Assembly (NCBI RefSeq): GCF_024500045.1
Contig: NZ_JTEO01000002.1
Coordinates: 248,001 to 312,000 of the forward strand
DNA from: Methanolobus chelungpuianus
GTDB taxonomy: Archaea; Halobacteriota; Methanosarcinia; Methanosarcinales; Methanosarcinaceae
Length of the DNA stretch: 64,000 nucleotides
Direction: 5' to 3'
How positions within the stretch are numbered: the stretch's first letter is position 1; each line of letters starts with the position of its first letter. The notes beneath the pieces were generated by a model. That model saw only the letters and a program-made list of their open reading frames with translations. It was not told where the DNA came from and did not search any database. Made by a program: the position numbers and the translations under genes. Positions 1,987 through 47,866 of the stretch are shown here, in pieces.

Positions 1987-2116
1987 GCCCTGCAGGATAT
2001 CTCTTACCTGCAGTTAATGTAAGCATGATACGCGCCATGCTTAAATATAGATAAAATTAATTGTGACAACACAGGATTATAAATTCACTATTGAACGGAT
2101 AAATGCGAGGTTAATC

Positions 2117-2704: not shown

Positions 2705-2966
2705 ATATGTGATCTCTGTTCCGGGCCAGCAAAGCCTGGATATTCTTTTTATGGCTGCCTGCTGGCGTATCAGGACCGGTATTCATCTCCTTGAAGGCTT
2801 ATTTTGATACAGCGAACTCTCGAATGAGAATACTCCCGATGAGAATGTTTGCAATATCTCTGGCCGGCATTGCTTAAGAAGGATTCAGGAACAGAGGGCA
2901 GATTGAAAATATGATTAAGGCAGAAGTGAAAACGCGATTAAATAAAGAGGCTTCAAGCAGCCCCTT

Positions 2967-3890: not shown

Positions 3891-3983
3891 TTATATCACT
3901 CAAGCTTGAAAATTCTGTTCATATACACTTTTTCTTGCGTAAGTACCTTTAATCATGTTTTTCTATTTTAAATATTGCGTGAG

Positions 3984-4006
3984 GACCTGAAACGGATTGT
4001 CAGGTC
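3984..4006. promoter_or_regulatory. Inverted repeat next to aldolase promoter
   Basis: GACCTGA and TCAGGTC form a perfect 7-bp inverted repeat with a 9-bp spacer. On the minus strand it lies a few bases upstream of an A+T-rich TATA-like element (about 3963-3979), which is 75-90 bases before the aldolase ATG. This position would suit an operator for the aldolase or for the divergent permease. No T-tract follows it on either strand, so it is not a terminator. Regulatory role is inference. Confidence 0.4.
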
Positions 4007-4190
4007 AGTGTGAATTCTGCCAGGAGGGACCAATATAGAAGTGGTAAAAATAGTGACTTTTTTATAGTTATCTGACTTCTTACTTGATGCTCATCTATCA
4101 TACTCTTCGGGCTTACATGTCAAAGAAGCCCTATCCAATCCCTATGCTTTCTTAAGAATGGCACATTCCTTCCACTACATGAGGTAATCA

Positions 4191-20650: not shown

Positions 20651-22393
20651 TCAGCGGCTTTCCACTTCCTCGCTCTGGTGGACCTTATCAAGTACCTTTT
20701 TGTCGTAGAGGTTGACAATATCACTTCTGGTAATGATGCCCAGGAGCTTCCTGCTGTCTTTCCTGGAGACCACGGGAAGCCTTCCTATATCCTTTGCCGC
20801 AAGTCTTTTGAGAACCGTATTAAGGGTCTCATCCGGATATGCAACCTCCACATCTTTCGTGGATATCTCGCAGATGGTCCTGTCAAGGTCGTCCTGTTTT
20901 ACTTTGTCCCTGAGATCCTTGAGAGTCACTATGCCGCAGAGGTCCCCGGTTGGATCAAGGACAGGGAACCCTGCATGGCGGCTTGATTGCATGAGGGATA
21001 TCAGTGCCTTTACGCTCTTGTTCTCAGAAACGGTCTGTACTTCCCGTTTCATGGCATCCCTGACAAGCAGCGATTCCATGATGTCCACTTCCCTGCCTTT
21101 CCTTATATTGAAACCGCGTTTGCGCAAACCCTCCGTGAATATGGACTCGGGATTCCGGGAGCTTGACACAAGGTTGCTGACCACGCAGGCGAGCATGATC
21201 GGCAGGATGAGGTTGTAATCCCTTGTAAGTTCAAAGAGGATCAGTATGGCGGCAAGCGGCGCATGGCTTGTTCCTGCAAGGACGGCTCCCATCCCTGCCA
21301 GTGCGTAAGCACCTGATTCCGCAGTGATTGCGGGGAAGGCACCATGTATAATGCTTCCGTAGGCTCCTCCGAGCATGGCACCTGTGAACAGCGCAGGGAC
21401 AATGGAGCCGCCGGACCCCCCGGACCCCATCGTAAAAGAGAATGCCAGGATCTTCAGGACCACCAGTGCAAGCATGAGATCAAGAGCAAGTTCGTTTGAC
21501 AGGGCATCCATAATAACATCGTATCCTACCCCGAATACCTGCGGGTAGAAGTAGCCGATGATCCCTACAAAAAGTCCCCCAATTGCAGGTTTGAACAAGG
21601 GGTTCACTTTCAATGCATCAAAGTACTCGTGCGATGAATGCAGGAAACGCATCAATATGACTGCAAATATTCCTGCCAGTATCCCAAGGCCCAGGTAGAA
21701 TGCGGATTCATAGAAGGGGCTGACCAGATGATAACTGGAGACCCCTATGACCCTTACCCCGAAGATGGTGTTGGAGACCAGCGTTGCAAAGACCGCTGAT
21801 ATGACTATGGGGATGAAGGTCTTTGCCTCCAGCTCTCCCAGTATGACCTCAACTGCAAAGACAACTCCTGCCAGAGGAGCATTGAATGAAGCTGCAATTC
21901 CCCCGGCAGCTCCGCATCCTAGTAGGATACTGACCCTGTTGCCGTGTATTCCGAAGAGCCGGGCAAGGGATGAGCCTATACCTGACCCGGCAAGTACTAC
22001 GGAAGCCTCCTTGCCGGCAGATCCTCCTGAACCGATCGTTATAACAGATGCCGCAACTTCAAGGAAGGCATTTCGGGGAGATATCTTTCCTCCGCTCAAT
22101 GTAATGGCTTCGATCACTTCTTCGATATCATAGCGTCGCGTCCTTATCAACAGATTAGCGAACACACCTACGATGAGGCCTCCAAGGGCAGGCAGGAGAA
22201 TGACATAATAACGAGGGTATCTATAGACACTTCCGAAGAAAAGACTCTCGCTGCTACTCAGGGCATAGTCGTAAAGGACGATAGCAAGGCCGGTGAGGGT
22301 ACCTACGAGGACGGCAAGGGAATTGGATATCACCGACTCATTTTGGAGCCACTGGTTGATATTTCGTTTTGTCGCCTTTATTATTGCATCCAA
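20651..22393 (-). CDS. ClC-family chloride channel/transporter with CBS pair
   Basis: 580 residues. Residues about 20-430 form the ClC membrane domain: the GSGGSAGKEAS segment holds the gating glutamate (GKE), and GSGGSGGSIVPALF is the later selectivity-filter loop. Residues about 450-570 form two CBS domains. At the position of the internal proton glutamate (EcClC Glu203) the segment FAVEVILG has Val, as in ClC channels rather than coupled exchangers; this alignment was made by eye. CBS domains probably bind an adenine nucleotide. Convergent with the methylthiotransferase, with 21 bp between stops. Confidence 0.92.
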   Translation of the reverse strand: MDAIIKATKRNINQWLQNESVISNSLAVLVGTLTGLAIVLYDYALSSSESLFFGSVYRYPRYYVILLPALGGLIVGVFANLLIRTRRYDIEEVIEAITLSGGKISPRNAFLEVAASVITIGSGGSAGKEASVVLAGSGIGSSLARLFGIHGNRVSILLGCGAAGGIAASFNAPLAGVVFAVEVILGELEAKTFIPIVISAVFATLVSNTIFGVRVIGVSSYHLVSPFYESAFYLGLGILAGIFAVILMRFLHSSHEYFDALKVNPLFKPAIGGLFVGIIGYFYPQVFGVGYDVIMDALSNELALDLMLALVVLKILAFSFTMGSGGSGGSIVPALFTGAMLGGAYGSIIHGAFPAITAESGAYALAGMGAVLAGTSHAPLAAILILFELTRDYNLILPIMLACVVSNLVSSSRNPESIFTEGLRKRGFNIRKGREVDIMESLLVRDAMKREVQTVSENKSVKALISLMQSSRHAGFPVLDPTGDLCGIVTLKDLRDKVKQDDLDRTICEISTKDVEVAYPDETLNTVLKRLAAKDIGRLPVVSRKDSRKLLGIITRSDIVNLYDKKVLDKVHQSEEVESR

Positions 22394-22691
22394 TTTTGCT
22401 CATCTCTATGGGGCCTCTGGAAAAGATACCATTCCATAGCGGTCAGGGTTAAGATAAACTTTTTGCAGGGCTGATCTTGTATTTATTATACTGTATTAAT
22501 TAATATGAATTTATAAATACTTCTATATTGAATAATTATATAATATAGGACTGTATATTGATATCTAGTGGAGAATGCGGGGGCATTAGTGAGTTCACTG
22601 TGTATCCGCATACAATTAACAGTCATAATAAGTGGAGTCTACTCCAGACATTGTCAACCTGGGGTAAAAAATTGTCATAAGGGTGGTATGA
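22394..22691. promoter_or_regulatory. A+T-rich upstream region of surface-protein cluster
   Basis: 298 bp without a gene. It is very A+T-rich between 22480 and 22565, with several TATA-like runs (for instance TTAATTAATATGAATTTATAAA near 22495). A 14-bp palindrome, TGGAGT-CT-ACTCCA, lies at 22633-22646, 46 bases before the first surface-protein start. GGGTGGT at 22681 is the ribosome binding site. Confidence 0.4.
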
Positions 22692-24932
22692 ATGCATCCC
22701 TTCATAAAAAACGTTAGAACTAGTAGTATACGGGTTATTGTCACAATTAGCTTATACATCGCGCTTGTACTATGTGCGATCAGCTTCATCGGTGTCGGTA
22801 TGGCATCTTCGTCCGGGGAAATCACCTCTGTTGATTTCAATTCGAATGTCACCAGTGGAAATGCTCCTTTGACAGTAGCGTTCACAGGTGTCTCTGAAAG
22901 CGCAATAGAATGGGACTGGGATTTTGGTGACGGAAGTACCAATTCGACTGCCCAGAACCCATTTCACACTTATAACTCTGCCGGAATCTACACTGTAACT
23001 CTTACAGCTGTAAATGAAAATGGCACCAGCACTGAAAGTAAAACCAATCTCATCACAGTATTAAAAGTGCCTACATACTCTGTATCTTCAGCAGTTGATG
23101 GCGGTACGGCAAACATTGGAGTTGACAGATCGACTGCAAAAGAAGGCCAAACAGTTAATGTGACCATCAGTGATATCCAGGCAGGTAAGCAGTTTGCCTA
23201 TATCAAAGTTACAGGTGAGAATAACCAGGTCAATGCAACCGAGGTAATTCCTGGAGTCAGCTACACATTCAACATGCCTGCAGAAAACGTAACTGTAACT
23301 GTGGCTCTTAAGGATACCCCGGTGACAACTTATGGAATCCAAACAGAGGTCATAGGCGGGAATGCAACTGTAACGACTGATCCCGCAACTGCAGCAGAAA
23401 AAGGGACCAATGTCATTGTAACTATCAGCAACATTGAACCTGGCAAGCAGTTCAACTCTATCACAGTAAGATCTGGGCCTGGCAAGTCAATTGAAACTAG
23501 TGTGCAACCTCCTGAAGAGGTCTATACTTTCACAATGCCTGAAAAGGCAGTAACAGTAACTGTTGTGTTGGAGGATTCACCCGTATCTATAATTACTGTG
23601 ACTGGCGTCGAAGCAGTTAATCTTCCCACTAAAGAAAACTATATTGAAGGTGAAACTCTTAACCTCTCTGGTCTGCTGGTAAGGCTTATCAGGTCAGATG
23701 GCAGCACAGTAGACGTGGCACATTCCGAGTTTGCAGCCAATGGCCTGACTACAATTCCGTCAAACGGTGATACCCTTAGCACTGCAAATACAACAATCAC
23801 TATCGCCCATGCAGATAGAGCAACTGCAACTCTGACCATAAAGGTTAACGCAGCGCCGGTGCCAGTGACCCAAATTGTCGTGACCGGAAGTGGGAACTCT
23901 ACTACTGTGGAGAAGGGCAAGACACTGCAAATGAGTGCGGCGGTCCTGCCTGAAAGTGCAAATAATAAGAACGTTGTCTGGTCTGTAGTGAAAGGCAGCG
24001 GGACGGCTTCTGTCAGCTCGACGACAGGTCTGCTAACAGGGACAGGAGCAGGTACTGTGACAGTCGTGGCCACCGCCGCAGATGGTTCAGGTGTGCAAGG
24101 CGCTCTCAATATAACAATCACTGAAGCGCAGTCCGCAACAACAGCATCGTCGGGTGGCGGTGGAGGAGGCGGGTCCCAGAATACCGGAGAAAAGAACGAG
24201 AACATTGAGCTGAAGGACTATTCCATAAAGTATGTCCTGAAAGATACAGAAACACTTTTCGAGTTCGCCAAAGAAGGTAACAGCGTCATATCCCTTGGTT
24301 ACACTGCCAGCCTTAATGGAGGTCAGACCAAGACCGTCATAGAGATGCTTAAGGGCACTTCCACTCTGGTCAACAAGGCCGCTCCAGGAACTGTTTACAA
24401 GAACGTGAACATCTGGGTGGGGGACGGAAAGGCGCCTGCCATGCTGTCCGATGCAAGGATTATGTTCAGAGTGGAAAAATCATGGCTGTCGGAGAACAGG
24501 ATAGATCCTGCAAATATAAGGATGTGCAGATATAATAGTGGCTCGTGGGCTCAACTGCCAACCAGCATGACTGGCGAGGATGATACCTACGTGTACTATC
24601 TTGCAAGAACACCGGGCTTCTCTGCATTTGCCATCTCCAGCATAAGTGAGGCTCAGCAGGCAGCTTCAACAGGCATCCAGCAGGGCTCTTCTTCTCTTCA
24701 GGAGGAGGGGAGCACACACATGTCAACCGCAGACAGCAAGGCACCTGGAGCTCCCAATACCGTTTCCCAGGAGGCGCAGTCTGCCGGGTCCTTCATGCTC
24801 CTGCTGATCATTGCAGTCACCACGGCCGTTGGAATACTGAGCTACAGGCACAGGGATTATCTCTCACAGGTTCGCATGCAGCTGGGTAATCCCGACGGAA
24901 AGCGCTACAGGCGTTTAAAGAAGTATAATTGA
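22692..24932 (+). CDS. Surface protein A: PKD, B-repeat and Big-type domains, PGF-pre-PGF domain, C-terminal anchor
   Basis: 746 residues, predicted to be exported and anchored on the outside of the cell. Order: signal segment (residues about 13-38); PKD domain (43-125, with WDWDFGDGS); two tandem repeats of about 80 residues ending in YTFNMPAENVTVTV and YTFTMPEKAVTVTV; a Big-type domain (about 300-385); a Big_2-like domain (about 390-480); a Gly-rich linker; the PGF-pre-PGF domain (about 502-650, ending TPGFSAFAI); a Ser/Gln stalk; one membrane segment (700-720); and a basic tail with NPDGKRYRR. Three paralogues follow. The C-terminus does not look like PGF-CTERM, the archaeosortase signal. 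An adhesive or cell-wall role is inferred from domain type only. Confidence 0.88.
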   Translation: MHPFIKNVRTSSIRVIVTISLYIALVLCAISFIGVGMASSSGEITSVDFNSNVTSGNAPLTVAFTGVSESAIEWDWDFGDGSTNSTAQNPFHTYNSAGIYTVTLTAVNENGTSTESKTNLITVLKVPTYSVSSAVDGGTANIGVDRSTAKEGQTVNVTISDIQAGKQFAYIKVTGENNQVNATEVIPGVSYTFNMPAENVTVTVALKDTPVTTYGIQTEVIGGNATVTTDPATAAEKGTNVIVTISNIEPGKQFNSITVRSGPGKSIETSVQPPEEVYTFTMPEKAVTVTVVLEDSPVSIITVTGVEAVNLPTKENYIEGETLNLSGLLVRLIRSDGSTVDVAHSEFAANGLTTIPSNGDTLSTANTTITIAHADRATATLTIKVNAAPVPVTQIVVTGSGNSTTVEKGKTLQMSAAVLPESANNKNVVWSVVKGSGTASVSSTTGLLTGTGAGTVTVVATAADGSGVQGALNITITEAQSATTASSGGGGGGGSQNTGEKNENIELKDYSIKYVLKDTETLFEFAKEGNSVISLGYTASLNGGQTKTVIEMLKGTSTLVNKAAPGTVYKNVNIWVGDGKAPAMLSDARIMFRVEKSWLSENRIDPANIRMCRYNSGSWAQLPTSMTGEDDTYVYYLARTPGFSAFAISSISEAQQAASTGIQQGSSSLQEEGSTHMSTADSKAPGAPNTVSQEAQSAGSFMLLLIIAVTTAVGILSYRHRDYLSQVRMQLGNPDGKRYRRLKKYN

Positions 24933-24953
24933 AAATACTCCTTAAAGCACATG

Positions 24954-24987
24954 GCCGGGAGTATGAGTCCCGGCACATTCCTTTTTT
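24954..24987 (+). terminator. Terminator after surface protein A
   Basis: GCCGGGA and TCCCGGC form a perfect 7-bp stem with a 7-base loop, followed by a T-rich run ending in six T. It lies 22 bases after the stop, so gene A is probably transcribed separately from gene B. Confidence 0.65.
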
Positions 24988-25100
24988 ATTGAAGTCAGCC
25001 ATTTATACTTAAGCTGGCTATACATCTATCCTATATATTTTATATTTCTTAGAATATGAATGCTAATCTTTATAACTTTGCATGCAGAGATACAGCTTCT

Positions 25101-26903
25101 ATGGTGGGTTATTCCATGACTTTCACTGTTTCAAGTGACCAAAAAATATCACTTTCCTGCTATCACAGGTTTAAAAAACATGCATTCTGTGTGCTTGCAT
25201 TCTGCTTGCTGTTTATGGGATCCGTGGTTGCAGGCGCCAGTTCTCTGGAGATAGACTCGATTCCAGATCAAAACGTCTCTATAGGTGACTATGTCGAACT
25301 TACTGTCTCTGCCACAGGGTCTGACCCCTCTCTCATAGAGTACGACATTGTGAACAAGCCATCTGATGCCAGCTTTGACCCGGAGACCGGTGAGTTCAGC
25401 TGGGTCCCGGAAAGCAGCGGTGAATATGGCATGCAGTTTTCTGCCACGGACGGTAATTCAACAGCTACAGAGGATGTCACTATAGTTGTTACTGCCGCTC
25501 CTAACAATGCGCCGGTAATAAAGGTACCGGGCTCTGAGACAGTAGAGGTCGGTCAGTACCTGAGTTTCACTATAGAAGCACGTGACAAGGACAAAGATGA
25601 GCTTACATTCTCTATGTCAAGCCCTCCCTCCTCAGGTGCAATCATTGATCCGGCTTCCGGTAAGTTCGAGTGGACTCCGGCTGCAGGTGAGGCGGGTACA
25701 TACGATGTAGAGTTTGCGGTTTCGGACGGGTCTGAGAGCGATACCGGAAGCGTGACCATCACAGTCACTGAAGCCAGTTCCGGGGAGGATGAACCCGGGA
25801 GCAATGCCACACTGGTTATGGCAGCAATAAGCCCTAAGACCGTTGCCGTGAACGACACCCTGCAGTTCACCGTGAGCGCATCTGGAGGAAACGGCGCGCT
25901 GCTATTCTCGGCATCATCGCTTCCTTCCGGAGCAGAGTTCGATACTACGACTCAGGTATTCAAGTGGACGCCTTCAGCTTCTCAGGTAGCGCAATATTCA
26001 TTCTTATTCACAGTTACGGATGGTGTCAACAGTGACACTGGAACGGCCTCAGTTAAAGTCATTGCAGCCGACAACCCCTCGACAGATTCTTCAGGTTCTT
26101 CAGGTGATTCCGGCGGCTCCGGTGGCTCCGGCGGAAGTTCGTCCGGCAGCAGTGGGAGTGGTGGAGGAAGTTTCCAGGCCAGTAAAGAGAAGTATGAGAA
26201 TATAGAGTTTAAAGACTTCTCTATTAAATACGTACTCAGGGATGTAGAGAATGTATTCAATTTCAGCATGGAAAACAACAGCATCAAGTCTGTTGTCATT
26301 GTAACCCTGCTGAACGAGGGAGAGACCAAGACTATAATCGAGATGCTTAAGGGCACTTCCACCATGGCGAAAAAGGCGCCTCCTGGTATTGTTTACAGGA
26401 ATGTGAACATTTGGGTGGGAGACGAGAAGTTCTCCTCCAGCAAATTAAAGACGGCAATGGTGGAGTTCAAGGTTGAGAAGTCGTGGCTTTCGGAAAAGTC
26501 CATAGACCCTGCCTCTGTTAAGCTACTCAGGTACTCAGGCTCATGGAACTATCTGCCGACCAGCATAACCGGTGAGGATGAGACCTATGTTCATTATGCT
26601 GCATATACGTCAGGATTCTCGGTGTTTGCCATATCCAGTGTGAATGAAAGTGATTTTGCCCCGACAGGAGAGCAGAATGTTTCACAGGATAATGAGAACA
26701 TCTCTCACTCAGTTGGTGACGAGGAGGGTTCCGCTGCAGTCCCTGTGACGCAGAACGGTAGGTCCTCCAAGTATATCCTGTTCGCGCTGGTGGGCATGGC
26801 AGGCCTTGGTGCCATAGGTTACAGGTACAGGGAACAAGCCAACGAAATACTATCCAAGTTGGGCAACTCCGACGGTAAGCGCTACAGGCGCATCAGGAAA
26901 TAG
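25101..26903 (+). CDS. Surface protein B: three Ig-like repeats, Gly/Ser linker, PGF-pre-PGF domain, C-terminal anchor
   Basis: About 600 residues. Start is uncertain: ATG 25101 begins Met-Val-Gly-Tyr, parallel to paralogue C; ATG 25116 has GGTGGG before it; ATG 25056 has neither. A signal segment (AFCVLAFCLLFMGSVVAGA) is followed by three He_PIG/cadherin-like repeats of about 90 residues, each closing on an FxWxP strand (FSWVP, FEWTP, FKWTP). Then come a Gly/Ser/Asp linker, the PGF-pre-PGF domain (bases 26190-26640), a stalk, a membrane segment and a tail with NSDGKRYRR. Ig-like repeats of this kind usually bind Ca or partner proteins; here that is inference. Confidence 0.87.
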   Translation: MVGYSMTFTVSSDQKISLSCYHRFKKHAFCVLAFCLLFMGSVVAGASSLEIDSIPDQNVSIGDYVELTVSATGSDPSLIEYDIVNKPSDASFDPETGEFSWVPESSGEYGMQFSATDGNSTATEDVTIVVTAAPNNAPVIKVPGSETVEVGQYLSFTIEARDKDKDELTFSMSSPPSSGAIIDPASGKFEWTPAAGEAGTYDVEFAVSDGSESDTGSVTITVTEASSGEDEPGSNATLVMAAISPKTVAVNDTLQFTVSASGGNGALLFSASSLPSGAEFDTTTQVFKWTPSASQVAQYSFLFTVTDGVNSDTGTASVKVIAADNPSTDSSGSSGDSGGSGGSGGSSSGSSGSGGGSFQASKEKYENIEFKDFSIKYVLRDVENVFNFSMENNSIKSVVIVTLLNEGETKTIIEMLKGTSTMAKKAPPGIVYRNVNIWVGDEKFSSSKLKTAMVEFKVEKSWLSEKSIDPASVKLLRYSGSWNYLPTSITGEDETYVHYAAYTSGFSVFAISSVNESDFAPTGEQNVSQDNENISHSVGDEEGSAAVPVTQNGRSSKYILFALVGMAGLGAIGYRYREQANEILSKLGNSDGKRYRRIRK

Positions 26904-26950
26904 ATATAGGTTTTGCTGCTGGCGGGGGTCAGCCTGTCAGCCCGATATCT

Positions 26951-26985
26951 GGCAGACCGCAGAAGTTCTGCCGGAATCTCTTTTT
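26951..26985 (+). terminator. Terminator after surface protein B
   Basis: GGCAGA and TCTGCC pair as a 6-bp stem with a 10-base loop, followed by a run ending in five T. It is 47 bases after the stop of B. Confidence 0.45.
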
Positions 26986-27065
26986 AGGAGGTATCTTGCT
27001 TATATTATAATTAAAAACATATACATAATAATATTTATCTGAGTATAGTTCGAGATAAGCCATCT

Positions 27066-29894
27066 ATGGTGGGTCACCCGGCTGCTAACTCTATACACAA
27101 ACTCTTGCATGATGACGAAAGAAGATTGAGAAGCCACATTCTTTTTTACCTGTTCATATCGCTGCTGATATTATCTGTCAATATAGCAGTTGCCAGTCCT
27201 CCTGCATTCCAGGTTGAAAATAAGAACATCAATGAAGGCCAGCTTCTCACTTTTGTGGTATCTGCCACTGACCCTGATGGCGACAGAATAGTTTACGCCA
27301 TTACAGGACTACCCCAGGGAGCATCCTTTACCGACGGGAACGGGGAGAATGCAGGTAAGAAGATATTCTCATGGACTCCGGGATATGATGGTGCAGGTAC
27401 TTATCCTGTAAGTTTTTCTGCCACTGACGGAACATCCACTGTATATTCTAACATCACAATAACAGTTGTAAATGTTAACAGGGAGCCCATTCTTGCGGTC
27501 ATAGGCCCCAAATCTGTCAGTGAGAACAGCCAGCTGACCTTCTCACTTTCGGCAACCGACCCTGACAGCAATACTACTTTTAAGTTCTCCTTATCGAACA
27601 ATCCCAAAAGTGCAACAATTGATTCTGCATCAGGTGTTTTTCAGTGGACACCCACATATGATGAGGCCGGAACTTACCAGGTGGAGTTCATCGTTTCTGA
27701 TGGGAAGGATCAGGACTCCGAATATGTCACTATCACAGTTAATAATGCAAACCGTCCTCCGGTATTCTCACCTATTGCTGATACAAGTATTAACGAGAAC
27801 GAGCCTCTTGAGATTATTCTCACAGCCTCCGACCCTGATAAGGATGTGCTGGTGTTCACCAAGAATGTTCCATTCGGTACAATATCCGGGAATAAGTTCT
27901 CCTGGAAGCCCACGTATGATAATGCCGGTGAACACTCCATCCAGTTTACAGTAAGAGATGGCGATGCAGAGGTAACCCAGACAGCAAAAGTGACTGTAAA
28001 CAATGTCAACAGGGCACCGATACTGTACTCAATTCCGGATGTGTCCTCCAAGGTGAATGAGCAGATCACCATACAGTTGGTTGGATACGATGCGGATGGC
28101 GATGCCCTTACCTATCATAACGTAAGTGCATTGCCTGCAGGGGCTCAGTTCAATGCAGCAACGGGGACGTTCAAGTGGACTCCTGCGACTATAGACTACA
28201 AGAACATAGCATTTAGTGTCGATGACGGTTCGCTCTCATCTAAATCAAGAGGAGTCATACTTGTAGTGGGAGATGCGGTTTCCACTCCCGATATGGCATC
28301 AATTACCAACCCGAAGATAAATGAGAACGAACAATTATCTTTTACAATCTCAGCCTCTGACAAGGATGGTGACCAACTGGCTTATTCCCTTGTCTCTTAT
28401 CCTGTAGGTGCAAGTCTTGAGAGCACAAAAGGTCTATTCACATGGACCCCTTCCTATAATGAAGCAGGCAGGCACATAACCGAATTCAAGGTCTCGGAGA
28501 CAGACACTATCTATCATTTCTCTGATTATAAAATAGCAATCATTGAAGTTGTTAACGTCAACAGAGCGCCTGAAATAACTTCTGTTCCTGCGGGCATTGT
28601 CAATGAGGCTCAGCTTCTGCAAATCCCTCTTGCTGCGACAGATCCCGATGGTGACTCCCTTACGTTCAAGACCAACAAATCATATGGCACCATTAGAGGA
28701 AACATGTTCATGTGGACTCCTGGTTACTCTGACGCTGGAATTCACTATATTGAATTCACTGCCTCAGACGGCTCCCTCAGTGCGAGCACAATTGCAGTAG
28801 TGATGGTGCATAATGCCAACATGCCACCAAAATTCAGCTCTATCGGGGCAAAGGAAGTAACTATTGGCAGCACACTCGAATTCACAGTGAGCGCCTCTGA
28901 CGGGGATGGTGATCCTCTGGTATATTCTGCATCAGGGATGCCTTCAGGAGCAAGTTTTGACGATACTTCCAGAGTATTCAAGTGGACGCCGGCTGTTTCA
29001 CAGAAAGGTACCTATTCTGTAAGCTTCAAGGTAAGCGATGGAACACTCAATGATTATCAAACGATTGCAGTTACGGCAAAAGAACCCTCATCTACCAGTT
29101 CCTCGGGCGGCGGTGGCGGTGGTGGAGGAGGCGGTGGCGGAAGCCCTTCGGGCAGCGGTGAGAAATATGAGAACGTTGAGTTCAAGGATTACTCCATCAG
29201 GTACGTGATGAAGGACACTGAGACAGTGTACAACTTTACAAAAGAGAACAGCATTATAACACAGGTAAGCCTGGCATCAAGACTGAACCAGGGTCAGACC
29301 AAAGTCGTGGTAGAGACACTCAAGGACAGATCCTCTCTGGTCAATAAAGTAGCTCCTGGTCTGGTTTACAGGAACCTGAACATCTGGGCAGGGGATGAGA
29401 AACTCTCGCCTGCCAGCCTGTCAGATGCGCATGTTGTTTTCAGGGTGGAGAAAGGCTGGATTGAGACCAGCAGGGTAGACCCGTTCTCGATAAGACTTCT
29501 CCAGCATGCCAGCGGTTCATGGGAGCAGCTGCCCACCACCAGGACCGGTGAAGACGAGATTTACGTCTATTATATTGCAAAGACATCTGCTTTTTCAATG
29601 TTCGCCATCTCAAGCATGGATGAAAAAGCACTGATTGAAGGTTCCGGTAAAGGAGGGCCGGGTGCACTGCAGCCTGAAGGCGAGGAGAACGGCACAATGT
29701 CTGTGGCTGATCCGGACAAGGCCGGGCCGTCTATGGCTGAACAGGAACGGAGATCTTCCTGGCTTCTGTTGCTTACCATCATAGGACTGATGGCTCTGGG
29801 AGTAATAGGCTACAGGTACAAGGATCCTCTGAGTAAAGCCATCACACAATTTGGCAATCCTGACGGGAAGCGTTACAGACGCTTTAGACGCTAG
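27066..29894 (+). CDS. Surface protein C: seven Ig-like repeats, poly-Gly linker, PGF-pre-PGF domain, C-terminal anchor
   Basis: 942 residues, the largest of the four. A signal segment (residues about 25-43) precedes seven consecutive He_PIG/cadherin-like repeats of 85-95 residues, each with a DPDGD-like turn and a closing FxWxP strand (for instance FSWTP, FQWTP, FSWKP). Most junctions read V-N-N-x-N-R-x-P. A linker of about 13 consecutive Gly follows, then the PGF-pre-PGF domain (bases 29160-29620, ending in SAFSMFAI, so the PGF triplet itself is changed), a stalk, a membrane segment and a tail with NPDGKRYRR. The DxDGD turns suggest Ca-dependent stiffening of the rod (inference). An A+T-rich promoter-like stretch precedes it (27000-27045). 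Confidence 0.88.
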   Translation: MVGHPAANSIHKLLHDDERRLRSHILFYLFISLLILSVNIAVASPPAFQVENKNINEGQLLTFVVSATDPDGDRIVYAITGLPQGASFTDGNGENAGKKIFSWTPGYDGAGTYPVSFSATDGTSTVYSNITITVVNVNREPILAVIGPKSVSENSQLTFSLSATDPDSNTTFKFSLSNNPKSATIDSASGVFQWTPTYDEAGTYQVEFIVSDGKDQDSEYVTITVNNANRPPVFSPIADTSINENEPLEIILTASDPDKDVLVFTKNVPFGTISGNKFSWKPTYDNAGEHSIQFTVRDGDAEVTQTAKVTVNNVNRAPILYSIPDVSSKVNEQITIQLVGYDADGDALTYHNVSALPAGAQFNAATGTFKWTPATIDYKNIAFSVDDGSLSSKSRGVILVVGDAVSTPDMASITNPKINENEQLSFTISASDKDGDQLAYSLVSYPVGASLESTKGLFTWTPSYNEAGRHITEFKVSETDTIYHFSDYKIAIIEVVNVNRAPEITSVPAGIVNEAQLLQIPLAATDPDGDSLTFKTNKSYGTIRGNMFMWTPGYSDAGIHYIEFTASDGSLSASTIAVVMVHNANMPPKFSSIGAKEVTIGSTLEFTVSASDGDGDPLVYSASGMPSGASFDDTSRVFKWTPAVSQKGTYSVSFKVSDGTLNDYQTIAVTAKEPSSTSSSGGGGGGGGGGGGSPSGSGEKYENVEFKDYSIRYVMKDTETVYNFTKENSIITQVSLASRLNQGQTKVVVETLKDRSSLVNKVAPGLVYRNLNIWAGDEKLSPASLSDAHVVFRVEKGWIETSRVDPFSIRLLQHASGSWEQLPTTRTGEDEIYVYYIAKTSAFSMFAISSMDEKALIEGSGKGGPGALQPEGEENGTMSVADPDKAGPSMAEQERRSSWLLLLTIIGLMALGVIGYRYKDPLSKAITQFGNPDGKRYRRFRR

Positions 29895-29923
29895 CTATTC
29901 CTGCTGATCAGGATACATGGTCA

Positions 29924-29960
29924 GGGAGAGATAGCATTCTCTCCTCCTATCTCTCTTTTC
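29924..29960 (+). terminator. Terminator after surface protein C
   Basis: GAGAGATAG and CTATCTCTC form a perfect 9-bp stem with a 12-base loop, followed by TTTTC. It is 30 bases after the stop of C. Confidence 0.55.
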
Positions 29961-30055
29961 AAGCAATGGTACTAGTTTTACTTAGCAGAGTTTCTATGCT
30001 CTTTATTGCTCCTCAGGGGAACTATGTTTGTAACGAGGGGTTGTGGGGTCTAGCT

Positions 30056-31849
30056 ATGCTTTTAAACGGAAAGAGCACCAGACGGTCCGTTTGCCGGAAA
30101 TCAGGAAGGGACCTGTTGTATATTTTATGCATCCTTCTTGTCGTGGTATCTGCGGGTATGGCAAACGCAGACTCTGATGATGAGAATGATACGGTTTCAA
30201 CCGATGACAGTGAAGATGACAAGGATACCGATAGCAGCGAGGATGCCGCTGAAACAGAAGATACAACGAGTGCTGGTGATCCTTCGGCAGCTGAACCTGG
30301 TGACAATGAGGATGAAACAGGTGAAGACGATCCTGTAAGTAAAGAGGGCAATCCCAATGACACCGGATCAGGAGATACCCAGGCCGGAGATGAAGGCGAA
30401 GCAGACCCTGCTGAGTCCGATGATCCGGAAGACAGCACACAAGGCTCCGACGGATCAGCTTCAGATAAGGATACAATAATATCTGCCAATACATCAGCCA
30501 GCAACACCAGTGAATCCCAGGACAGCGATGAGAAAAAGGACGAGGATAGTAACGGGGGTAAGAAAGAGAAGGATAACGGCAAATCCAGCGAAGGGTCAGC
30601 AGCCGCAGCTCCCGCTGAGCCTGCTCTGAATAACAATGAGATAAGTGAGGATAAACAGGATACTAAGAAATCCTCCGATGATACAGACAAGGACAACGAC
30701 AGCAAGGCAGACAGTGATAATAAAAAAGATACTGATGCCAAGGCCGATTCTTCAGGTTCCGTTCCAGATACCAGCTCTAAGGATGATGATGCTTCTAAGG
30801 ATGAAAATGGTAAAGAAAAATCACCCAAGGATGACACTGCTAAAGATAGTTCCTCTAAGGATAATCCTTCTAAGGGTGCTTCAGTAACCAGGGATTCCGG
30901 CTCTGTAAGCAGTTCAACAGGAAGCTCAACTGGTACTGCCAGTACTACTGTTAGCAGCACGGCCAATAACAAATCCAAGTACACTGCGGATACTAAGGAA
31001 AGCTCAGGCGGCAACCTCACAACAGATCATACAAGCAATGTGAGCAGTCAGGTGAATGCTTCAGTTAACATCTCTTCGAACCTTTCCATTATACGCTCTG
31101 AAGATGCGGAATTCCTCAGAGAGTTCCGTGACTCGACGGAGTCCGGGGATAATATTGAATTCAGGGACTACTCTTTTGCTTCTATTGTAAGGGGTCAGGA
31201 GGCACTGTTCAGATTTGGATATGAGGAAAATGTTGTTACTTCTGTCAGTTTCATGCCGGCGGTCAGCGGGGGACATGTCCGGACCGTTGTGGAGATCCTG
31301 AAGGGCACCTCGACACTTATCAGGGAGCACGCGCCTGGAATGGTGTACAGGAACTTCAATATATGGGTAGGAGACGCTGAGTTCTCTCCGCAGAAGATCA
31401 CAGATGCAAGGGTCAGCTTTAAGGTGGAGAAGGAGTGGCTCACATCAAACGATATCGACTCCGGGACCATGGTCCTTTATACATATATCAATGGCTGGAA
31501 CTCCCTGTCTACGGAAATAACAGGAGAGGATGAGGAGTATGTGTACTATACGGCACAGACTCCGGGATTCTCATTATTTGCCATCGCAAGTACAGAAGAC
31601 TCATATATGCTCACTGGCGACCAGGCTGGTAAACTACCGGCTGCGCGAGAGGACAGTGGCATTGGGAGCAGTGCAGCAGCCTCCGGGAAGAGTGAGGTCC
31701 CACATTACAATACTTACAGGAGCGCTGCAATCCTGCTGGTCAGCCTGCTTGTTGCAGGGGCTGTGGGTATGGCAGGTCTGAAGTATATGGCTCGCCCTGC
31801 TGGAAATGGTAGTATGGATGATGGTGACAATAGTGATGTTAAAAACTGA
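30056..31849 (+). CDS. Surface protein D: long acidic Ser/Asp/Lys-rich region, PGF-pre-PGF domain, C-terminal membrane segment
   Basis: About 597 residues from ATG 30056, which gives a clean signal peptide (basic start, LLYILCILLVVV, cleavage near ANA-DS). An in-frame ATG at 29966 would add 30 residues of unlikely sequence. Residues about 38-340 are low-complexity, almost only Asp, Ser, Lys, Glu, Thr, Gly and Ala, with repeated KDDxxKD/SSKD motifs, so the region should be disordered and strongly negative. A PGF-pre-PGF domain follows (bases 31140-31600, TPGFSLFAI), then a stalk and one membrane segment. The tail is short and acidic (DDGDNSDVKN), unlike the basic tail of A, B and C. It could act as a charged spacer or Ca/Mg-binding coat; unproven. 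Confidence 0.85.
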   Translation: MLLNGKSTRRSVCRKSGRDLLYILCILLVVVSAGMANADSDDENDTVSTDDSEDDKDTDSSEDAAETEDTTSAGDPSAAEPGDNEDETGEDDPVSKEGNPNDTGSGDTQAGDEGEADPAESDDPEDSTQGSDGSASDKDTIISANTSASNTSESQDSDEKKDEDSNGGKKEKDNGKSSEGSAAAAPAEPALNNNEISEDKQDTKKSSDDTDKDNDSKADSDNKKDTDAKADSSGSVPDTSSKDDDASKDENGKEKSPKDDTAKDSSSKDNPSKGASVTRDSGSVSSSTGSSTGTASTTVSSTANNKSKYTADTKESSGGNLTTDHTSNVSSQVNASVNISSNLSIIRSEDAEFLREFRDSTESGDNIEFRDYSFASIVRGQEALFRFGYEENVVTSVSFMPAVSGGHVRTVVEILKGTSTLIREHAPGMVYRNFNIWVGDAEFSPQKITDARVSFKVEKEWLTSNDIDSGTMVLYTYINGWNSLSTEITGEDEEYVYYTAQTPGFSLFAIASTEDSYMLTGDQAGKLPAAREDSGIGSSAAASGKSEVPHYNTYRSAAILLVSLLVAGAVGMAGLKYMARPAGNGSMDDGDNSDVKN

Positions 31850-31960: not shown

Positions 31961-34060
31961 ATGCTTGACAGAATGTTTGATCCAAATGCCGTAGCCGTTA
32001 TAGGGGCTTCGAGGAACAAAGGCAAGGTGGGAAGGGCAGTACTTGAGAATCTCATGGCTGCCAGTGACGACATAGATATAATTCCCATCAACCCCAAGGA
32101 CGAGGAAATACTGGGGCTTCGCGCCTATCCCTCTATCCTGGATGTCCCCCGGGAGAAGAATGTCGAACTTGCAGTTATAGTGATACCGGCAAAGCTGGTT
32201 CCCGGAGCCATCGAGCAGTGTGCTCTTGCAGGTGTGAAGAACGTTGTCGTTATCTCGGCAGGCTTCAAGGAGGCAGGCATAGAGGGTGCCCACCTGGAAC
32301 GTGAATGCGTCGCTTTGTGCGAAAAGTACGGCATCGATATGGTAGGGCCCAACTGTCTGGGTATTATTGATACGGCATCAGGTCTTAATGCATCCTTTGC
32401 CGCAAACATGGCATTAAGGGGCAACATTGCCATGATGTCACAATCCGGGGCCATATGTACCGTGACCCTGGACTGGGCCGAGAAGACAAGTGTCGGTTTC
32501 TCCAAGTTCGTGAGCCTTGGAAATAAGGCTGACCTTGATGAGAACGATTTCCTCGGTTTCTTTAACAGGGATAAAGATACGTCTGTCATCGCCGCATACC
32601 TTGAAGGGATAAAGAACGGGCCGGATTTCATAAAGGTTGCAAGGCAGGTAACCCGCTCCAAGCCTGTAATAGTTGTGAAATCGGGAAGGACCTCGGTAGG
32701 TTCCAGGGCAGTATCATCCCACACAGGTACCCTTGCGGGTGCTGATGCTGCATATGATGCAGCTTTCAGGCAGAGCGGTGTGCTGCGTGCAGACTCCCTG
32801 GCAGAGATGCTTGACAAATCCAGGGCCTTTTCGGCTTATCCCCTGCCAGCCGGCAGGAACATTGCTATTGTGACCAATGCCGGCGGTCTGGGGATACTGG
32901 CTGCTGATGCATGTTCCAATGCAGGGCTGACCATCACATCCCTTGAGGAATCCACTATCGCAAAGCTCAGGGAAGCGCTGCCACCGGCTGCAGGATTGTA
33001 CAATCCCGTGGATGTGCTCGGGGATGCAAGTGCCGATATGTATGCCTATGCGCTCAGGACCGTGCTTGCAGACAGGAATGTGAACGGAGTGATAGTTCTT
33101 GTGTCCCCGCAAGCAATGACCGCTGTGGGAGAGATCGCGGAGAAGATAGTTGATACCGTAAAGAGCTCCGATAAGCCCGTGCTCTGCAATCTGGCAGGCG
33201 GTACACGGGTCCAGGAAGGTGAGGATATCCTGCACCGAAATGGGATCCCGAATTATCCGTTCCCTGAGAGAGCGGTCACAAGCATGTATGCATTGTGTGA
33301 GTACTATTCCATCAGGAACCGGAGTTACGTGCCACCCGATGAGATGAAGGTGGACAGAATACATGCAGCTGAAGCCATAAGAGAGGCACGCGAGAAAAAG
33401 ACACGGACCCTTGGCCTTGAGTCTATGGGCATATTGTCCTCATACGGAATTCATGTGGTAGATTCCAGGATCGCGAAAACCCTCCCTGAAGCAGTGAGGA
33501 TATCCGAAGAGATAGGTTACCCCGTGGTCATGAAGATCGTATCGCCTGACATCTCTCACAAGACCGATGTGGGAGGCATCCGTCTCAACCTGCAGCACGC
33601 CGATGACGTGGAGCGCGCTTATAACACCATGATGTCTGACGTGCGCCACTATATGCACAATGCACAGATAGCAGGCGTCCAGATACAGAAAATGCTCAGC
33701 GGGGGGAAGGAAGTGATCATCGGGATGAACCGGGACCCTCAGTTCGGACCTTTGCTGATGTTCGGGCTTGGAGGCACCTACGTGGAGTTCCTCAAGGATG
33801 TTTCCTTTGCAGTAGCGCCCATAAGCATCGAAGATGCAAAGCACATGATAACATCCATCAAGACATATCCGCTCATTGCAGGCGTCAGGGGTGAACAGCC
33901 TTCAGACATTGCGTCTATAATCGACACGCTCATGAAAGTATCTCAGCTGAGCATGGATTTTCCTGAGATAATGGAATTCGAGATTAACCCTCTCATGGTA
34001 ATGCCGGAGGGCAAGGGCTGTGTTGCAATGGATGTGCGTTTTACCATAGATACAAAATGA
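31961..34060 (+). CDS. Acetate-CoA ligase (ADP-forming), fused alpha and beta subunits
   Basis: Interconverts acyl-CoA, ADP and phosphate with acid, CoA and ATP. The 699 residues include the CoA-binding Rossmann domain (AVIGASRNKGKVG), ligase-CoA domains with the phosphohistidine loop VSSHTGTLAGADAA (His near residue 254), and a C-terminal ATP-grasp beta part (from about 470) with YPVVMKIVSPDISHKTDVGG. Fused forms occur in many euryarchaea. Substrate may be acetate or other acyl groups from amino acid breakdown. The next gene, a BioD-like/DRTGG protein, is 56 bp away on the same strand. Confidence 0.92.
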   Translation: MLDRMFDPNAVAVIGASRNKGKVGRAVLENLMAASDDIDIIPINPKDEEILGLRAYPSILDVPREKNVELAVIVIPAKLVPGAIEQCALAGVKNVVVISAGFKEAGIEGAHLERECVALCEKYGIDMVGPNCLGIIDTASGLNASFAANMALRGNIAMMSQSGAICTVTLDWAEKTSVGFSKFVSLGNKADLDENDFLGFFNRDKDTSVIAAYLEGIKNGPDFIKVARQVTRSKPVIVVKSGRTSVGSRAVSSHTGTLAGADAAYDAAFRQSGVLRADSLAEMLDKSRAFSAYPLPAGRNIAIVTNAGGLGILAADACSNAGLTITSLEESTIAKLREALPPAAGLYNPVDVLGDASADMYAYALRTVLADRNVNGVIVLVSPQAMTAVGEIAEKIVDTVKSSDKPVLCNLAGGTRVQEGEDILHRNGIPNYPFPERAVTSMYALCEYYSIRNRSYVPPDEMKVDRIHAAEAIREAREKKTRTLGLESMGILSSYGIHVVDSRIAKTLPEAVRISEEIGYPVVMKIVSPDISHKTDVGGIRLNLQHADDVERAYNTMMSDVRHYMHNAQIAGVQIQKMLSGGKEVIIGMNRDPQFGPLLMFGLGGTYVEFLKDVSFAVAPISIEDAKHMITSIKTYPLIAGVRGEQPSDIASIIDTLMKVSQLSMDFPEIMEFEINPLMVMPEGKGCVAMDVRFTIDTK

Positions 34061-41369: not shown

Positions 41370-44300
41370 GTGAGTTCGGATATAGACTTTGTACGTGATA
41401 TGCTTCAGGGAAGCTATTTCTCTCTTCTGTACGATACCACGGAGGAATTCACGAGCATAGTAGCGGTATTCCTCGAGGCGGGCCTGCAGAACAATGAACG
41501 CTGTGTGTGGGCAGTCTCGGGCCCTATCGATGCTGACCGCGCAAGGGAGTCTCTCAGTCAGAGGGGCGTGGATGTCGTAAGATATCTTAAGAGCGGACAG
41601 CTGATAATCACTTCCTGTACGGAATGCTACTTTTCGGGAAAGGGTCCCTTCCTGGGAAGTATTCCCGATATGTGGCATTCATTCTATAGCGAGTCTATGA
41701 ATGCAGGCTATGAAGGTCTGCGTATCGTGGACAAGTTCACAATAGCCGGGGAAGAGGCATGGCACGCCTTTACAGGTTATCTCAAAGAAGGCATGGATGC
41801 AATACGCGGTAAACGTATCGTGGCCCTGTTCGCCTTTCTCAAGGATGCAAGGACGGGACAGGAAATACTGGATATAATAGGCATGCACGATGGCACAGTG
41901 ATCAGGAGAGGTGACAAATGGACACTGCTCCAGAGTTCCTCCTACTGCAGGCCCTTCCTTAAAGAGAACCGTTTCCCGGATGATATGCTTGAAAATATCT
42001 GGACTGGAGTGTGGGCTGTTGACAGGAACGATAATATAGTATATTTTAACAAAGGCATGGAATCAATATCCGGCCTTTCAAGGGCCGATGTGCTGGGAAA
42101 GAAGCTGGTAAAGTTCATACCGAGGCAGCTGAACAATGAAGAACTCGGTTTTGTTGACCTTTTCCAGATAGCAAAAGAAAACCTGCAGTCAAAAAGCTAT
42201 GACGTTTTTCCCTTCATCAAACCTGACGGTCAGTTCATCTACCACAGTGGCGTCCTGCTTCCATTGGTCGACGAGTACGGTAAGTATAAGGGAATGATGG
42301 GTACTATTGGTAAGGTTTTTGAGCAGAACATCACTCACAGCTTACTTCGGGACAGGCTTCGCTCCCTGGAAAAGCTGGAAGACATCTACAGGAAAAGCCC
42401 GGTGGTCGCTGTCCTCTGGAGGGCGGAAGAGGGCTGGCCTGTGGAATTTGTTTCCGAGAACATAAGTCAGTTCGGATACACCCCAGAATTTCTGACTTCC
42501 GGGCACCTGAGATATGAGGATATTGTGCATCCGGACGACCGTGATATGGTACGAAAGGATGTCTCACAGCTTGAGTTCGAAGGGAGGACATATTTTTCAA
42601 AGGAATATCGCCTGCTGACTAGGTCAGGAGAGGCACGCTGGGTGACTGAAAGATCATACCTGATAAGGGATGAGAAAGGAGCTCCCTCTTATTACCAGGG
42701 CATAATAATTGACATCAATGACCGGAAAAAAGCCGAGGAAGCTGCCCTGGAAGCTGAGAAGAAATATCACCTGATATTTGAGAACTCACCCCTGGGAATA
42801 TTCCATTTTGATGAGAACGGTATCATTACCCATTGCAACGAGAAGTACCTGGAGATCATAGGACTTCAGAAAAAGGAGGACATTATCGGTTTTAACATGG
42901 TAACGACCGTAAAGGACGGAAACATGAAAAAAGCGGTTGATGCCGTGCTTTCAAGGAAAACCGGGCACTTTGAGGGAGAGTACCATACGGCAGTCAGCGG
43001 CATAACGGTAGCCATAAAAGGTCACTTCAGCCCGAATATCTCAGACGATGGCAAGTTCCTGGGTGGCATCGGCATATTTGAGGATATTTCGGGACGTAAG
43101 AAGGCTGAAGAGGCATTCCGCCTGGATGAGTCCAGGCTTGAAACACTGCTGAAGCTCAATCAGATAACAAATAAATCCCTCAAGGAAATAGCGGATTTTG
43201 TACAGGAGGAGGCCGTAAGGCTCACTCAGAGCAAAATGGGATATCTGGCCTTCCTCAACGAGGAGGGAAGTGTACTTACAATCTACTCATGGTCAAGGAA
43301 TGTAATGATAGACTGCAATGTGGATGAAAAGAAATTTGATTACCTGCTCGAATCCACCGGCCTCTGGGGTGAGTCTGTCCGCCAGAAACGGCCTCTCATT
43401 ATAAATGACTATACGGCGTCCAATCCCCTAAAAAAGGGTTATCCTCACGGCCACATCAAAATGAAGCGCTATATGAGTGTCCCGATTCTTGATGGTGATA
43501 AAGTCGTTGGGGTTGCGGGTGTTGGCAATAAGAGCAGCGATTACGACCAGGCTGATGTCAGGCAGTTGACCCTGCTCATGGAAGGCATGTGGCAGATAAT
43601 CGAGCAGAAGAAAGTTGGTGATACGCTGCGCAGATATGCAGGTGAGCTTGCCCAGGTCAACAGGCAACTGTACAAGGCAAACCTTGAGCTATCTGCGGCT
43701 AATGAAGAACTGAAATCATTGGACAGGATGAAGGACGAATTCCTGTCCAATGTGAGCCATGAGTTCAAAACACCTCTTACTTCCATCCAGGGTTACAGCC
43801 AGCTCATATCCGACGGAACCCTCGGTGCGGTGAACGGGCAGCAGAAAAAGGCAGTGGATACCGTGATACGTAATTCCGAGAGGCTCAGGAAACTGGTGGA
43901 TTCCCTATTATATATCAGCAGAGCGCAGGCGGGAAGTCTCACATACTCCTTTTCCGATGTATCAATAGTCTCGGTTATAGAAAACTCCATACAGGATCTT
44001 GCCCTGCAGGCTGAAAAGAAGGACATCACCATTAAAAAGGATGTAGCTGAAGACCTGCCTGTCATCTGGGCAGACAGGGACAAGCTTGTCGATGTAATGG
44101 TGAACCTTCTTGACAACGCGATCAAGTTCACTCCCCAGAGAGGAAGTGTGGAGATAAGCGCTTTGGTTGAAGAGGACCAACTTCACATCCGTGTAAGTGA
44201 TTCGGGTATCGGTATTCCGGAAGACAAGTTGCCCAATCTCTTCGGGCGCTTCTACCAGGTGGATTCCTCCATCAGGAGAAGGTACGGCGGAACAGGCCTC

Positions 44301-44414
44301 GGCCTGTATATCTGTAAGATGATAGTGGAAGACCATAAGGGAAAGATCTGGGCTGAGAGCGAAGAGGGGAAGGGAAGCACTTTCCATGTGCTTCTGCCTT
44401 TGAAAAAAGCATGA
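41370..44414 (+). CDS. Multi-domain sensor histidine kinase (MEDS, three PAS, GAF)
   Basis: 1014 residues, no membrane segment, so cytoplasmic. Order: MEDS domain (residues about 5-185, as in DcmR-type sensors of methanogens and methylotrophs); PAS1 (206-320); PAS2 with PAC (340-455); PAS3 (462-580); GAF (600-750); coiled coil; HisKA with His near 797 (NVSHEFKTPL); HATPase (895-1012) with NLLDNAIKF, DSGIGIP and GTGLGLYI. The start is a GTG; an ATG is not available in frame before the MEDS domain. No response regulator gene is adjacent. MEDS domains are proposed to sense small organic compounds. The divergent A+T-rich gap with the ArsR-type regulator holds promoter-like runs near 41300. Confidence 0.92.
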   Translation: MSSDIDFVRDMLQGSYFSLLYDTTEEFTSIVAVFLEAGLQNNERCVWAVSGPIDADRARESLSQRGVDVVRYLKSGQLIITSCTECYFSGKGPFLGSIPDMWHSFYSESMNAGYEGLRIVDKFTIAGEEAWHAFTGYLKEGMDAIRGKRIVALFAFLKDARTGQEILDIIGMHDGTVIRRGDKWTLLQSSSYCRPFLKENRFPDDMLENIWTGVWAVDRNDNIVYFNKGMESISGLSRADVLGKKLVKFIPRQLNNEELGFVDLFQIAKENLQSKSYDVFPFIKPDGQFIYHSGVLLPLVDEYGKYKGMMGTIGKVFEQNITHSLLRDRLRSLEKLEDIYRKSPVVAVLWRAEEGWPVEFVSENISQFGYTPEFLTSGHLRYEDIVHPDDRDMVRKDVSQLEFEGRTYFSKEYRLLTRSGEARWVTERSYLIRDEKGAPSYYQGIIIDINDRKKAEEAALEAEKKYHLIFENSPLGIFHFDENGIITHCNEKYLEIIGLQKKEDIIGFNMVTTVKDGNMKKAVDAVLSRKTGHFEGEYHTAVSGITVAIKGHFSPNISDDGKFLGGIGIFEDISGRKKAEEAFRLDESRLETLLKLNQITNKSLKEIADFVQEEAVRLTQSKMGYLAFLNEEGSVLTIYSWSRNVMIDCNVDEKKFDYLLESTGLWGESVRQKRPLIINDYTASNPLKKGYPHGHIKMKRYMSVPILDGDKVVGVAGVGNKSSDYDQADVRQLTLLMEGMWQIIEQKKVGDTLRRYAGELAQVNRQLYKANLELSAANEELKSLDRMKDEFLSNVSHEFKTPLTSIQGYSQLISDGTLGAVNGQQKKAVDTVIRNSERLRKLVDSLLYISRAQAGSLTYSFSDVSIVSVIENSIQDLALQAEKKDITIKKDVAEDLPVIWADRDKLVDVMVNLLDNAIKFTPQRGSVEISALVEEDQLHIRVSDSGIGIPEDKLPNLFGRFYQVDSSIRRRYGGTGLGLYICKMIVEDHKGKIWAESEEGKGSTFHVLLPLKKA

Positions 44415-47547: not shown

Positions 47548-47866
47548 AGTATCACCCTCAACTTATGTTGAATCAATGCGTGGAAAATGTAAATGATGCA
47601 CAAAAATTTTGGGATTCACTTAAGGAAACAGGTTACATATATAAATATTTTCTCCTTAGCGTATAACTAGGACTATTATATCTGGATTAGAAATGATGAT
47701 GGCTTTGTGAGTAGTTCATCGACTGATTCAGTTCAAGAAAAGGGCCATAAAGTTTTTATACGCTATTAATATTTTTTTTCTATTGCTGCGTGAAGAAATG
47801 TAGCCGAAATCCAGACAGTATGGTGATATCGTCCTGGGTTTTGGATTGCTCTGGAGATTAGAAAGC
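47548..47866. other. Non-coding gap upstream of the subtilase
   Basis: About 320 bp between divergent genes without a convincing coding frame. It holds A+T-rich promoter-like runs, notably CATATATAAATATTTT near 47636-47651. No hairpin with T-tract seen. Confidence 0.4.

Follow-up and report, generated by a model that had tools for sequence, protein, structure and literature searches.

The Methanolobus chelungpuianus genome is a 2.6 Mb draft, and its contig NZ_JTEO01000002.1 (694,551 bases) carries four consecutive genes, here called A, B, C and D, within the 64,000-nucleotide stretch that was analysed (the window, positions 248,001 to 312,000 of that contig). The genes lie in tandem at window positions 22692-31849 on the + strand, and judged from their sequences they are an array of predicted secreted, transmembrane (TM)-anchored surface proteins, each with an N-terminal half of its own and a C-terminal anchor consisting of a PGF-pre-PGF domain and a TM helix. 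We propose, with a probability of roughly 75%, that the first gene (slot 1, A) is an exchange cassette whose middle part, the passenger, is either replaced wholesale or resized by domains, that slot 2 (C) is a stalk, that B and D (the last slot) have undergone gain, loss or replacement, and that the anchors recombine independently. Comparison with relatives demonstrated the architecture of this array, sharp DNA junctions around the slot-1 passenger, discordant trees, and a leader and a tail private to the locus.

Relatives were Methanolobus species and metagenome-assembled genomes (MAGs), with one genome per species; the window's own genome is G000, and those named below include G008 (M. psychrotolerans YSF-03), G009 (M. 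bombayensis DSM 7082), G012 (M. halotolerans SY-01), G016 (M. profundi Mob M), G139 (M. vulcani PL 12/M) and G140 (M. vulcani B1d). Wherever the contigs of these relatives extended far enough, the array was flanked by the same two genes as in the window, a ClC channel and an ADP-forming acyl-CoA synthetase. Since contiguous assemblies share these flank genes around the array, module swapping could be tested by the synteny comparison that an earlier sequence-only reading of this DNA had suggested.

When slot 1 of G005 was compared with slot 1 of G140, DNA identity was 88.8% from position -447 to nucleotide 120 of the coding sequence (CDS), where the signal peptide ends. A second stretch, which starts at the Gly-rich linker 806 nt ahead of the stop codon and runs to 118 nt past it, was 88.7% identical. 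The middle parts, ~1.3 kb in G005 versus ~3.8 kb in G140, had no alignable DNA. The same pattern of sharp junctions was obtained between G005 and G009. At the protein level, the passengers of G005 did not match those of G140, G009 or G137 despite anchors that were 90%, 87% and 86% identical, respectively, and the slot-1 passenger of G004 was likewise without a match in its neighbours. The G005 passenger had no counterpart in 30 relatives. Other pairs differed in passenger size or content; for example, slot 1 of G133 and G136 were 92% identical and one in-frame insertion of ~1,050 nt apart, and G000 and G135 differed in PKD, B-repeat and Big_3 content. Tandem units were found inside passengers of G005 (3 x 339 nt, 100% identity), G004 (2.9 x 261 nt, 96% identity) and G137 (L100; 17.9 x 270 nt of Ig-like sequence, 99% identity, slot-1 CDS 664-5506). 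Passenger types loosely followed subclades, with PKD, B-repeat and Big domains in the window's subclade and He_PIG repeats in much of the rest. At the level of sequence, this comparison of relatives shows module replacement on a constant anchor in slot A. The slot-1 passengers of G001, G002, G006, G009, G012, G138 and G139 carry an N-terminal cohesin-like domain before their immunoglobulin (Ig)-like repeats, a label that is our reading of the sequence and has no Pfam match.

Slot 2 showed a different behavior. In each of the 171 genus pairs, the match between the N-terminal halves covered 80% or more of the shorter protein; this half is orthologous across the genus and keeps its position, giving a conserved control within the same array. 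The sequence-only reading had proposed module swapping on one anchor for all four genes and had named identical N-terminal halves at fixed positions in all relatives as the observation that would speak against it; the relatives support swapping for A, but such a fixed N-terminal half is what was found for C. B was present in G000, G010, G133 and G136 and absent in G015. Since G015 is the sister of the B-carrying G000 in the tree of the ClC and synthetase genes, B was probably lost in G015. In the last slot, genomes of the window's subclade have a D-type acidic chain and most others a giant Ig-like protein of ~1,700-3,160 residues; the slot was partly covered in G137, G138, G139 and G140, whose sequences end before the far end of the array. 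In the G135 MAG (L099/L106), B is absent and the C leader continues into the D anchor in a different reading frame; the C passenger, the C anchor and the D N-terminal half are missing. Either part of the array was deleted here or the assembly is faulty. In G007 (L046, ~4021), the D-type gene has one in-frame TAG in the PGF domain (NVWIGSG*YSPYKL), which could be read through, as Methanolobus may read TAG as pyrrolysine, or could be a sign of decay.

The anchors told a history different from that of their surroundings. Slot-1 anchors of G001, G005, G006, G009, G138, G139 and G140 were of two types, whereas the upstream DNA united these genomes (support 100/99), and a single clade for the seven anchors, as given by upstream DNA, was rejected by the approximately unbiased (AU) test with p-AU of 3e-57. 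In the tree of the flank genes (ClC and synthetase), G001, G005, G006 and G009 formed one clade (100/100). A single clade was also rejected for slot-2 anchors (p-AU of 7.7e-6), despite their orthologous N-terminal halves. G140 has an anchor of the slot-1 type in slot 2, with 85% DNA identity over ~890 nt to its own slot 1; protein identity between the slot-2 and slot-1 anchors was 87% in this genome, in comparison with 44-56% in the other genomes compared. Within the window's own genome, anchors among A-D had only ~65-70% DNA identity or could not be aligned, and this divergence leaves no sign of recent swapping among the four genes. The trees and identities indicate that anchors recombine between species and, in G140, between slots, independently of passengers.

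The locus also stands apart from the rest of its domain family. The window's genome has ten PGF-pre-PGF genes, four of which are in the array and six of which are unlinked. A tree of 78 PGF domains placed every locus module of the genus in one clade (100/98) that excluded every unlinked module in the tree, including those six, so that the expectation of C-terminal modules closer to each other than to unlinked family members held. A, B and C share a basic tail after the TM helix with the consensus N-x-D-G-K-x-Y-R-R; its N, D, G, K, Y, R and R columns were invariant over 27 slot-1 and slot-2 tails, and one further R was nearly so. The tail profile matched this locus alone: 23 of the 27 genus genomes gave a match, and none of the others among the 238 genomes searched in the class did. 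Additionally, the slot-1 leader profile matched only slot 1 in the genus, with E-values of at most 1.5e-16 and a next best match of 1.5e-3. By these sequence criteria, the array forms a slot-ordered subfamily restricted to this locus in Methanolobus. Both locus proteins of G014 lacked the tail, and G018 had only the last-slot protein, on a short contig. PGF-pre-PGF homologues were also seen on contigs labelled WOR-3, Clostridia and Flavobacteriales (L126, L148, L179); these are possibly misbinned archaeal contigs or transfers.

In the window itself, the locus was laid out as follows, with the two flanking genes named from sequence.

20651..22393, - strand: left syntenic marker, a ClC-type chloride channel with CBS domains, with a genus-wide orthologue.
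22394..22691, + strand: upstream region of A, with a TATA-like TTTATAAATA at 22510 (TATA scan and sequence), a long leader and a GGTGG-like ribosome site immediately 5' of the A start.
22692..22811, + strand: constant leader and signal peptide of A (slot 1), MHPFxKN..., from the leader profile.
22812..24170, + strand: variable passenger of A, with PKD, two B-repeats, a Big_3/4-like domain, Big_2 and a Gly-rich linker.
24171..24932, + strand: constant anchor of A, with the PGF-pre-PGF domain, a disordered linker, a TM helix and the tail GNPDGKRYRR.
24954..24990, + strand: terminator-like stem-loop (24954-24974) and T-run 3' of A.
25056..26903, + strand: B, with three Ig-like (He_PIG/Big_9) repeats, anchor and the tail GNSDGKRYRR.
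27066..29894, + strand: C (slot 2), with seven Ig-like repeats (the putative stalk), anchor and the tail GNPDGKRYRR.
29966..31849, + strand: D (last slot), with an acidic Ser/Asp-rich disordered N-terminal half, PGF-pre-PGF and TM helix, lacking the GKRYRR tail.
31961..34060, + strand: right syntenic marker, an ADP-forming acyl-CoA synthetase, with a genus-wide orthologue.

Four consecutive PGF-pre-PGF genes, as described by the sequence-only reading, were confirmed as open reading frames, and TIGR04213 (PGF_pre_PGF) scored 168.9 bits for A, 158.7 for B, 155.3 for C and 159.2 for D against a cut-off of 28, which was exceeded by all 24 anchors tested across genomes. The sequence blocks quoted in that reading (KGTSTL, NIWVGD/NIWAGD, VEKSWL and TGED-x-YV) were found, and its account of the N-terminal halves agreed with ours. 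PKD and Big_2 were matched by Pfam in A itself, and the B-repeats of A, both divergent, and its Big_3/4-like domain were read from sequence and from Pfam matches in A orthologues; Pfam also gave the three repeats of B and the seven of C, and D had no Pfam family, low complexity and 26% D+E. A common membrane end had been described as well, which is complete in A, B and C (a G-N-x-D-G-K-R-Y-R-R tail) but lacks the tail in D. The upstream block at 22394..22691 together with the signal peptide would form the conserved 5' side of the slot-1 cassette, and DNA of relatives aligned with the A region from -449 into the CDS. Judging from relatives, the true starts are probably not at the first ATG in B, where 25101 or 25116 is expected, nor in D, where 30056 is expected. 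Elsewhere in the window, a Subtilase (Peptidase S8) gene lies at 47846-48964, ~16 kb downstream of the array, and a MEDS-PAS-GAF histidine kinase that carries a methanogen/methylotroph sensory domain at 41370-44414.

Under the proposed reading, an exchanged passenger in slot 1 would be bracketed by a promoter and signal peptide on one side and the C-terminal anchor on the other, all of them constant, and in-frame gain and duplication of whole Ig-like or B-repeat domains would resize it. Slot 2 would be a conserved Ig-like stalk, and B and D would come and go or be replaced. The donor would be incoming DNA of other strains, and the most likely agent is homologous recombination of the ordinary kind within the conserved flanks, joined by unequal exchange or slippage for tandem units. 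If the passenger is the outermost part, facing ligands or viruses, selection would favour its replacement, while the conserved cytosolic tail could bind a common intracellular partner. Several points weigh against this account. Within the window's own subclade, most of the change in slot A consists of related domains being gained, lost or duplicated, not of passengers replaced wholesale. With each species represented by a single genome, no exchange was seen between conspecific strains and no donor molecule was identified. Some genomes are draft MAGs, with gaps inside repeats in G011, G015 and G016, and both groups used for AU tests were chosen after the trees had been seen.

Two explanations dispense with exchange between genomes. 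Exposed domains of surface proteins often evolve fast, and the slot-A passengers of the window's subclade still have domain types in common, so one could suppose that fast-evolving Ig-like domains lost detectable similarity by ordinary vertical divergence. This is very unlikely, because in the G005/G140 and G005/G009 comparisons DNA identity of 80-89% ends abruptly at both junctions, nothing aligns between them and the domain families and lengths there differ, anchor trees conflict with upstream and flank trees, and slot 2 of the same genomes keeps its N-terminal half. The other supposes switching within the cell, in which the four genes or silent cassettes exchange N-terminal halves and one protein is displayed at a time. 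Such shufflon or phase-variation cassettes are marked by inverted repeats, silent copies and a recombinase gene. The presence of several paralogues that share an anchor and have promoter- and terminator-like signals of their own would suit this idea, and the sequence-only reading had raised choice among the genes on account of separate terminators after A, B and C. The stem-loop and T-run after A were clear by terminator scan and folding, but those after B and C were plausible by folding and were not called by the scan. Signals of this kind fit separate transcripts and are uninformative on choice. No inverted-repeat invertible element was found at the array, where the sole inverted repeat was an AT-rich palindrome upstream of A, and direct repeats of at least 24 nt were only the diverged anchors and tails (66-78% identity). 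In its own genome, the leader occurs once, neither leader nor passenger has a second copy, and matches of the A protein outside A are C-terminal only, from residue 357 onward. With no recombinase present among the ten neighbouring genes scanned either, choice among the genes is unsupported and the switching explanation was rejected as extremely unlikely; the products of A-D are probably made side by side and not chosen singly.

A third explanation shares its exchange mechanism with the account that we prefer and differs in the selective cause. Passengers would be exchanged as lineage-specific tailoring of adhesins, in long-term adaptation to attachment partners such as microbes or sediment and not under immune-like or virus-like pressure. 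The loose tracking of subclades by passenger types agrees with this; against it, the passengers of G005, G004 and G011 depart from the subclade pattern when set beside those of near relatives. We regard it as a serious possibility, held at less than even odds.

The array proteins resemble PGF-CTERM proteins, the clients of archaeosortase A, in having a TIGR04213 domain before a C-terminal TM helix, and an archaeosortase A gene was present in all genomes searched (TIGR04125, with 277.6 bits in the window's genome). They differ in the longer conserved basic cytosolic tail of A-C and in having no PGF at the TM helix. The PGF-CTERM model of NCBIfam, which has its PGF motif immediately ahead of the TM helix and a basic end, had no match in the 24 anchors up to E=10, and there was no PGF within 40 residues before the TM helix of A-D; the anchors have a PGF only within TPGFS, a sequence inside the domain some 55 residues ahead of the helix. 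Anchoring by archaeosortase A was rejected since no PGF adjoins the TM helix, and the locus proteins are probably plain TM-anchored.

AlphaFold2 (AF2) models of a locus anchor (mean pLDDT 85.5) and of the domain of an unlinked member alone (92.3) were both beta-sandwiches, and ZU5, GAIN and FIIND domains made up nearly all of their best solved matches. VIA Z values for the two models were 9.3 and 9.2 with ankyrin ZU5 and 8.5 and 8.8 with CD97 GAIN, against a best Z of 7-8 for the unmatched-model background, so that the resemblance of these predicted structures to the GAIN/ZU5 fold is suggestive only. With both models, alignments to cleaved GAIN structures stopped at the phenylalanine of F-S in GPR56 (382) and GPR97 (249), and the alignment to GPR110 ended at residue 566, within one residue of that phenylalanine. 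This is the point where GPR56 is cleaved, as its N-terminal GAIN part comprises residues 177-382 and T383A blocks cleavage (PMC7948743). The nearly invariant F-S-x-F-A-I occupies, in the models, the cleavage-site position before the last strand. The triad position reads G-F-S in most of 41 sequences (G in 36, F in 41, S in 40), whereas the canonical triad for GAIN autoproteolysis is H-X-S/T (PMC13062082); Gly thus replaces the -2 histidine in 36. There was no sequence-level match of PGF-pre-PGF to GAIN, ZU5 or FIIND, and a GPS by sequence was rejected, as PF01825 had no match at the listed PGF-pre-PGF positions in 20 genomes up to E=10. Because the -2 histidine, the GPS cysteines and a GPS match are all missing, self-cleavage is not predicted. 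Compared with GAIN, ZU5 and FIIND proteins, the locus has no conserved cysteines in PGF-pre-PGF, no -2 histidine and a single TM helix. It is doubtful, but conceivable, that PGF-pre-PGF is an archaeal disulfide-free relative of GAIN/ZU5, with F-S-x-F-A-I in the place of the GPS/Stachel and the array encoding receptors whose exchangeable ectodomains signal or pass force to the conserved cytosolic tail. If true, the likeness would matter for how a receptor domain regarded as eukaryotic arose.

Exchange of this kind could let an archaeon change its outer face without rebuilding the gene. Archaeal surface diversification by module exchange had earlier been proposed from mosaic sequences, and the near relatives compared here place the junctions at the signal-peptide end and in the linker. 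With placed junctions, the control gene C and the conserved tail, the donor, the rate and the selective agent (viruses, partners or surfaces) become testable in cultured Methanolobus.

Among known systems, polymorphic toxins have a constant N-terminus, a variable C-terminal toxin and an immunity gene. This candidate was set aside, since the variable part of the locus lies between constant ends and no toxin family appeared in Pfam scans. In bacterial flagellin (fliC) alleles, constant termini surround a central part, and homologous recombination within those flanks exchanges it; the likeness lies in constant ends around a replaced middle, in a different protein and domain of life. A literature search gave nothing direct on fliC-like replacement, prokaryotic GAIN domains or Methanolobus surface proteins.

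The closest precedents are archaeal. Makarova et al. (2021) reported that Ig domains of Thermococcales recombine between species (VARTIG), where recombination sites could not be placed, and noted mosaic Ig proteins of Methanosarcinales with C-termini conserved or homogenised by recombination (PMC8416519). Like VARTIG, the Methanolobus locus has archaeal Ig surface proteins, a fixed locus and inter-species recombination. However, in VARTIG it is a C-terminal Ig domain that is hypervariable, within a large arCOG07710 protein and a Thermococcales host, whereas the Methanolobus locus keeps its C-terminus constant and varies what precedes it, and the order, the domains and the host are others; membership was therefore rejected. 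With the Methanosarcinales loci it shares clustered large Ig-like proteins, mosaic domains and a conserved or homogenised C-terminal domain. Those were the subject of a remark with examples, while here one syntenic locus was traced genus-wide and tested with trees. The locus thus belongs to the general kind of mosaic archaeal Ig-protein loci noted in 2021 (PMC8416519), to which it adds the slot-specific pattern, nucleotide-level junctions, the conserved control gene C, and the private leader and tail.

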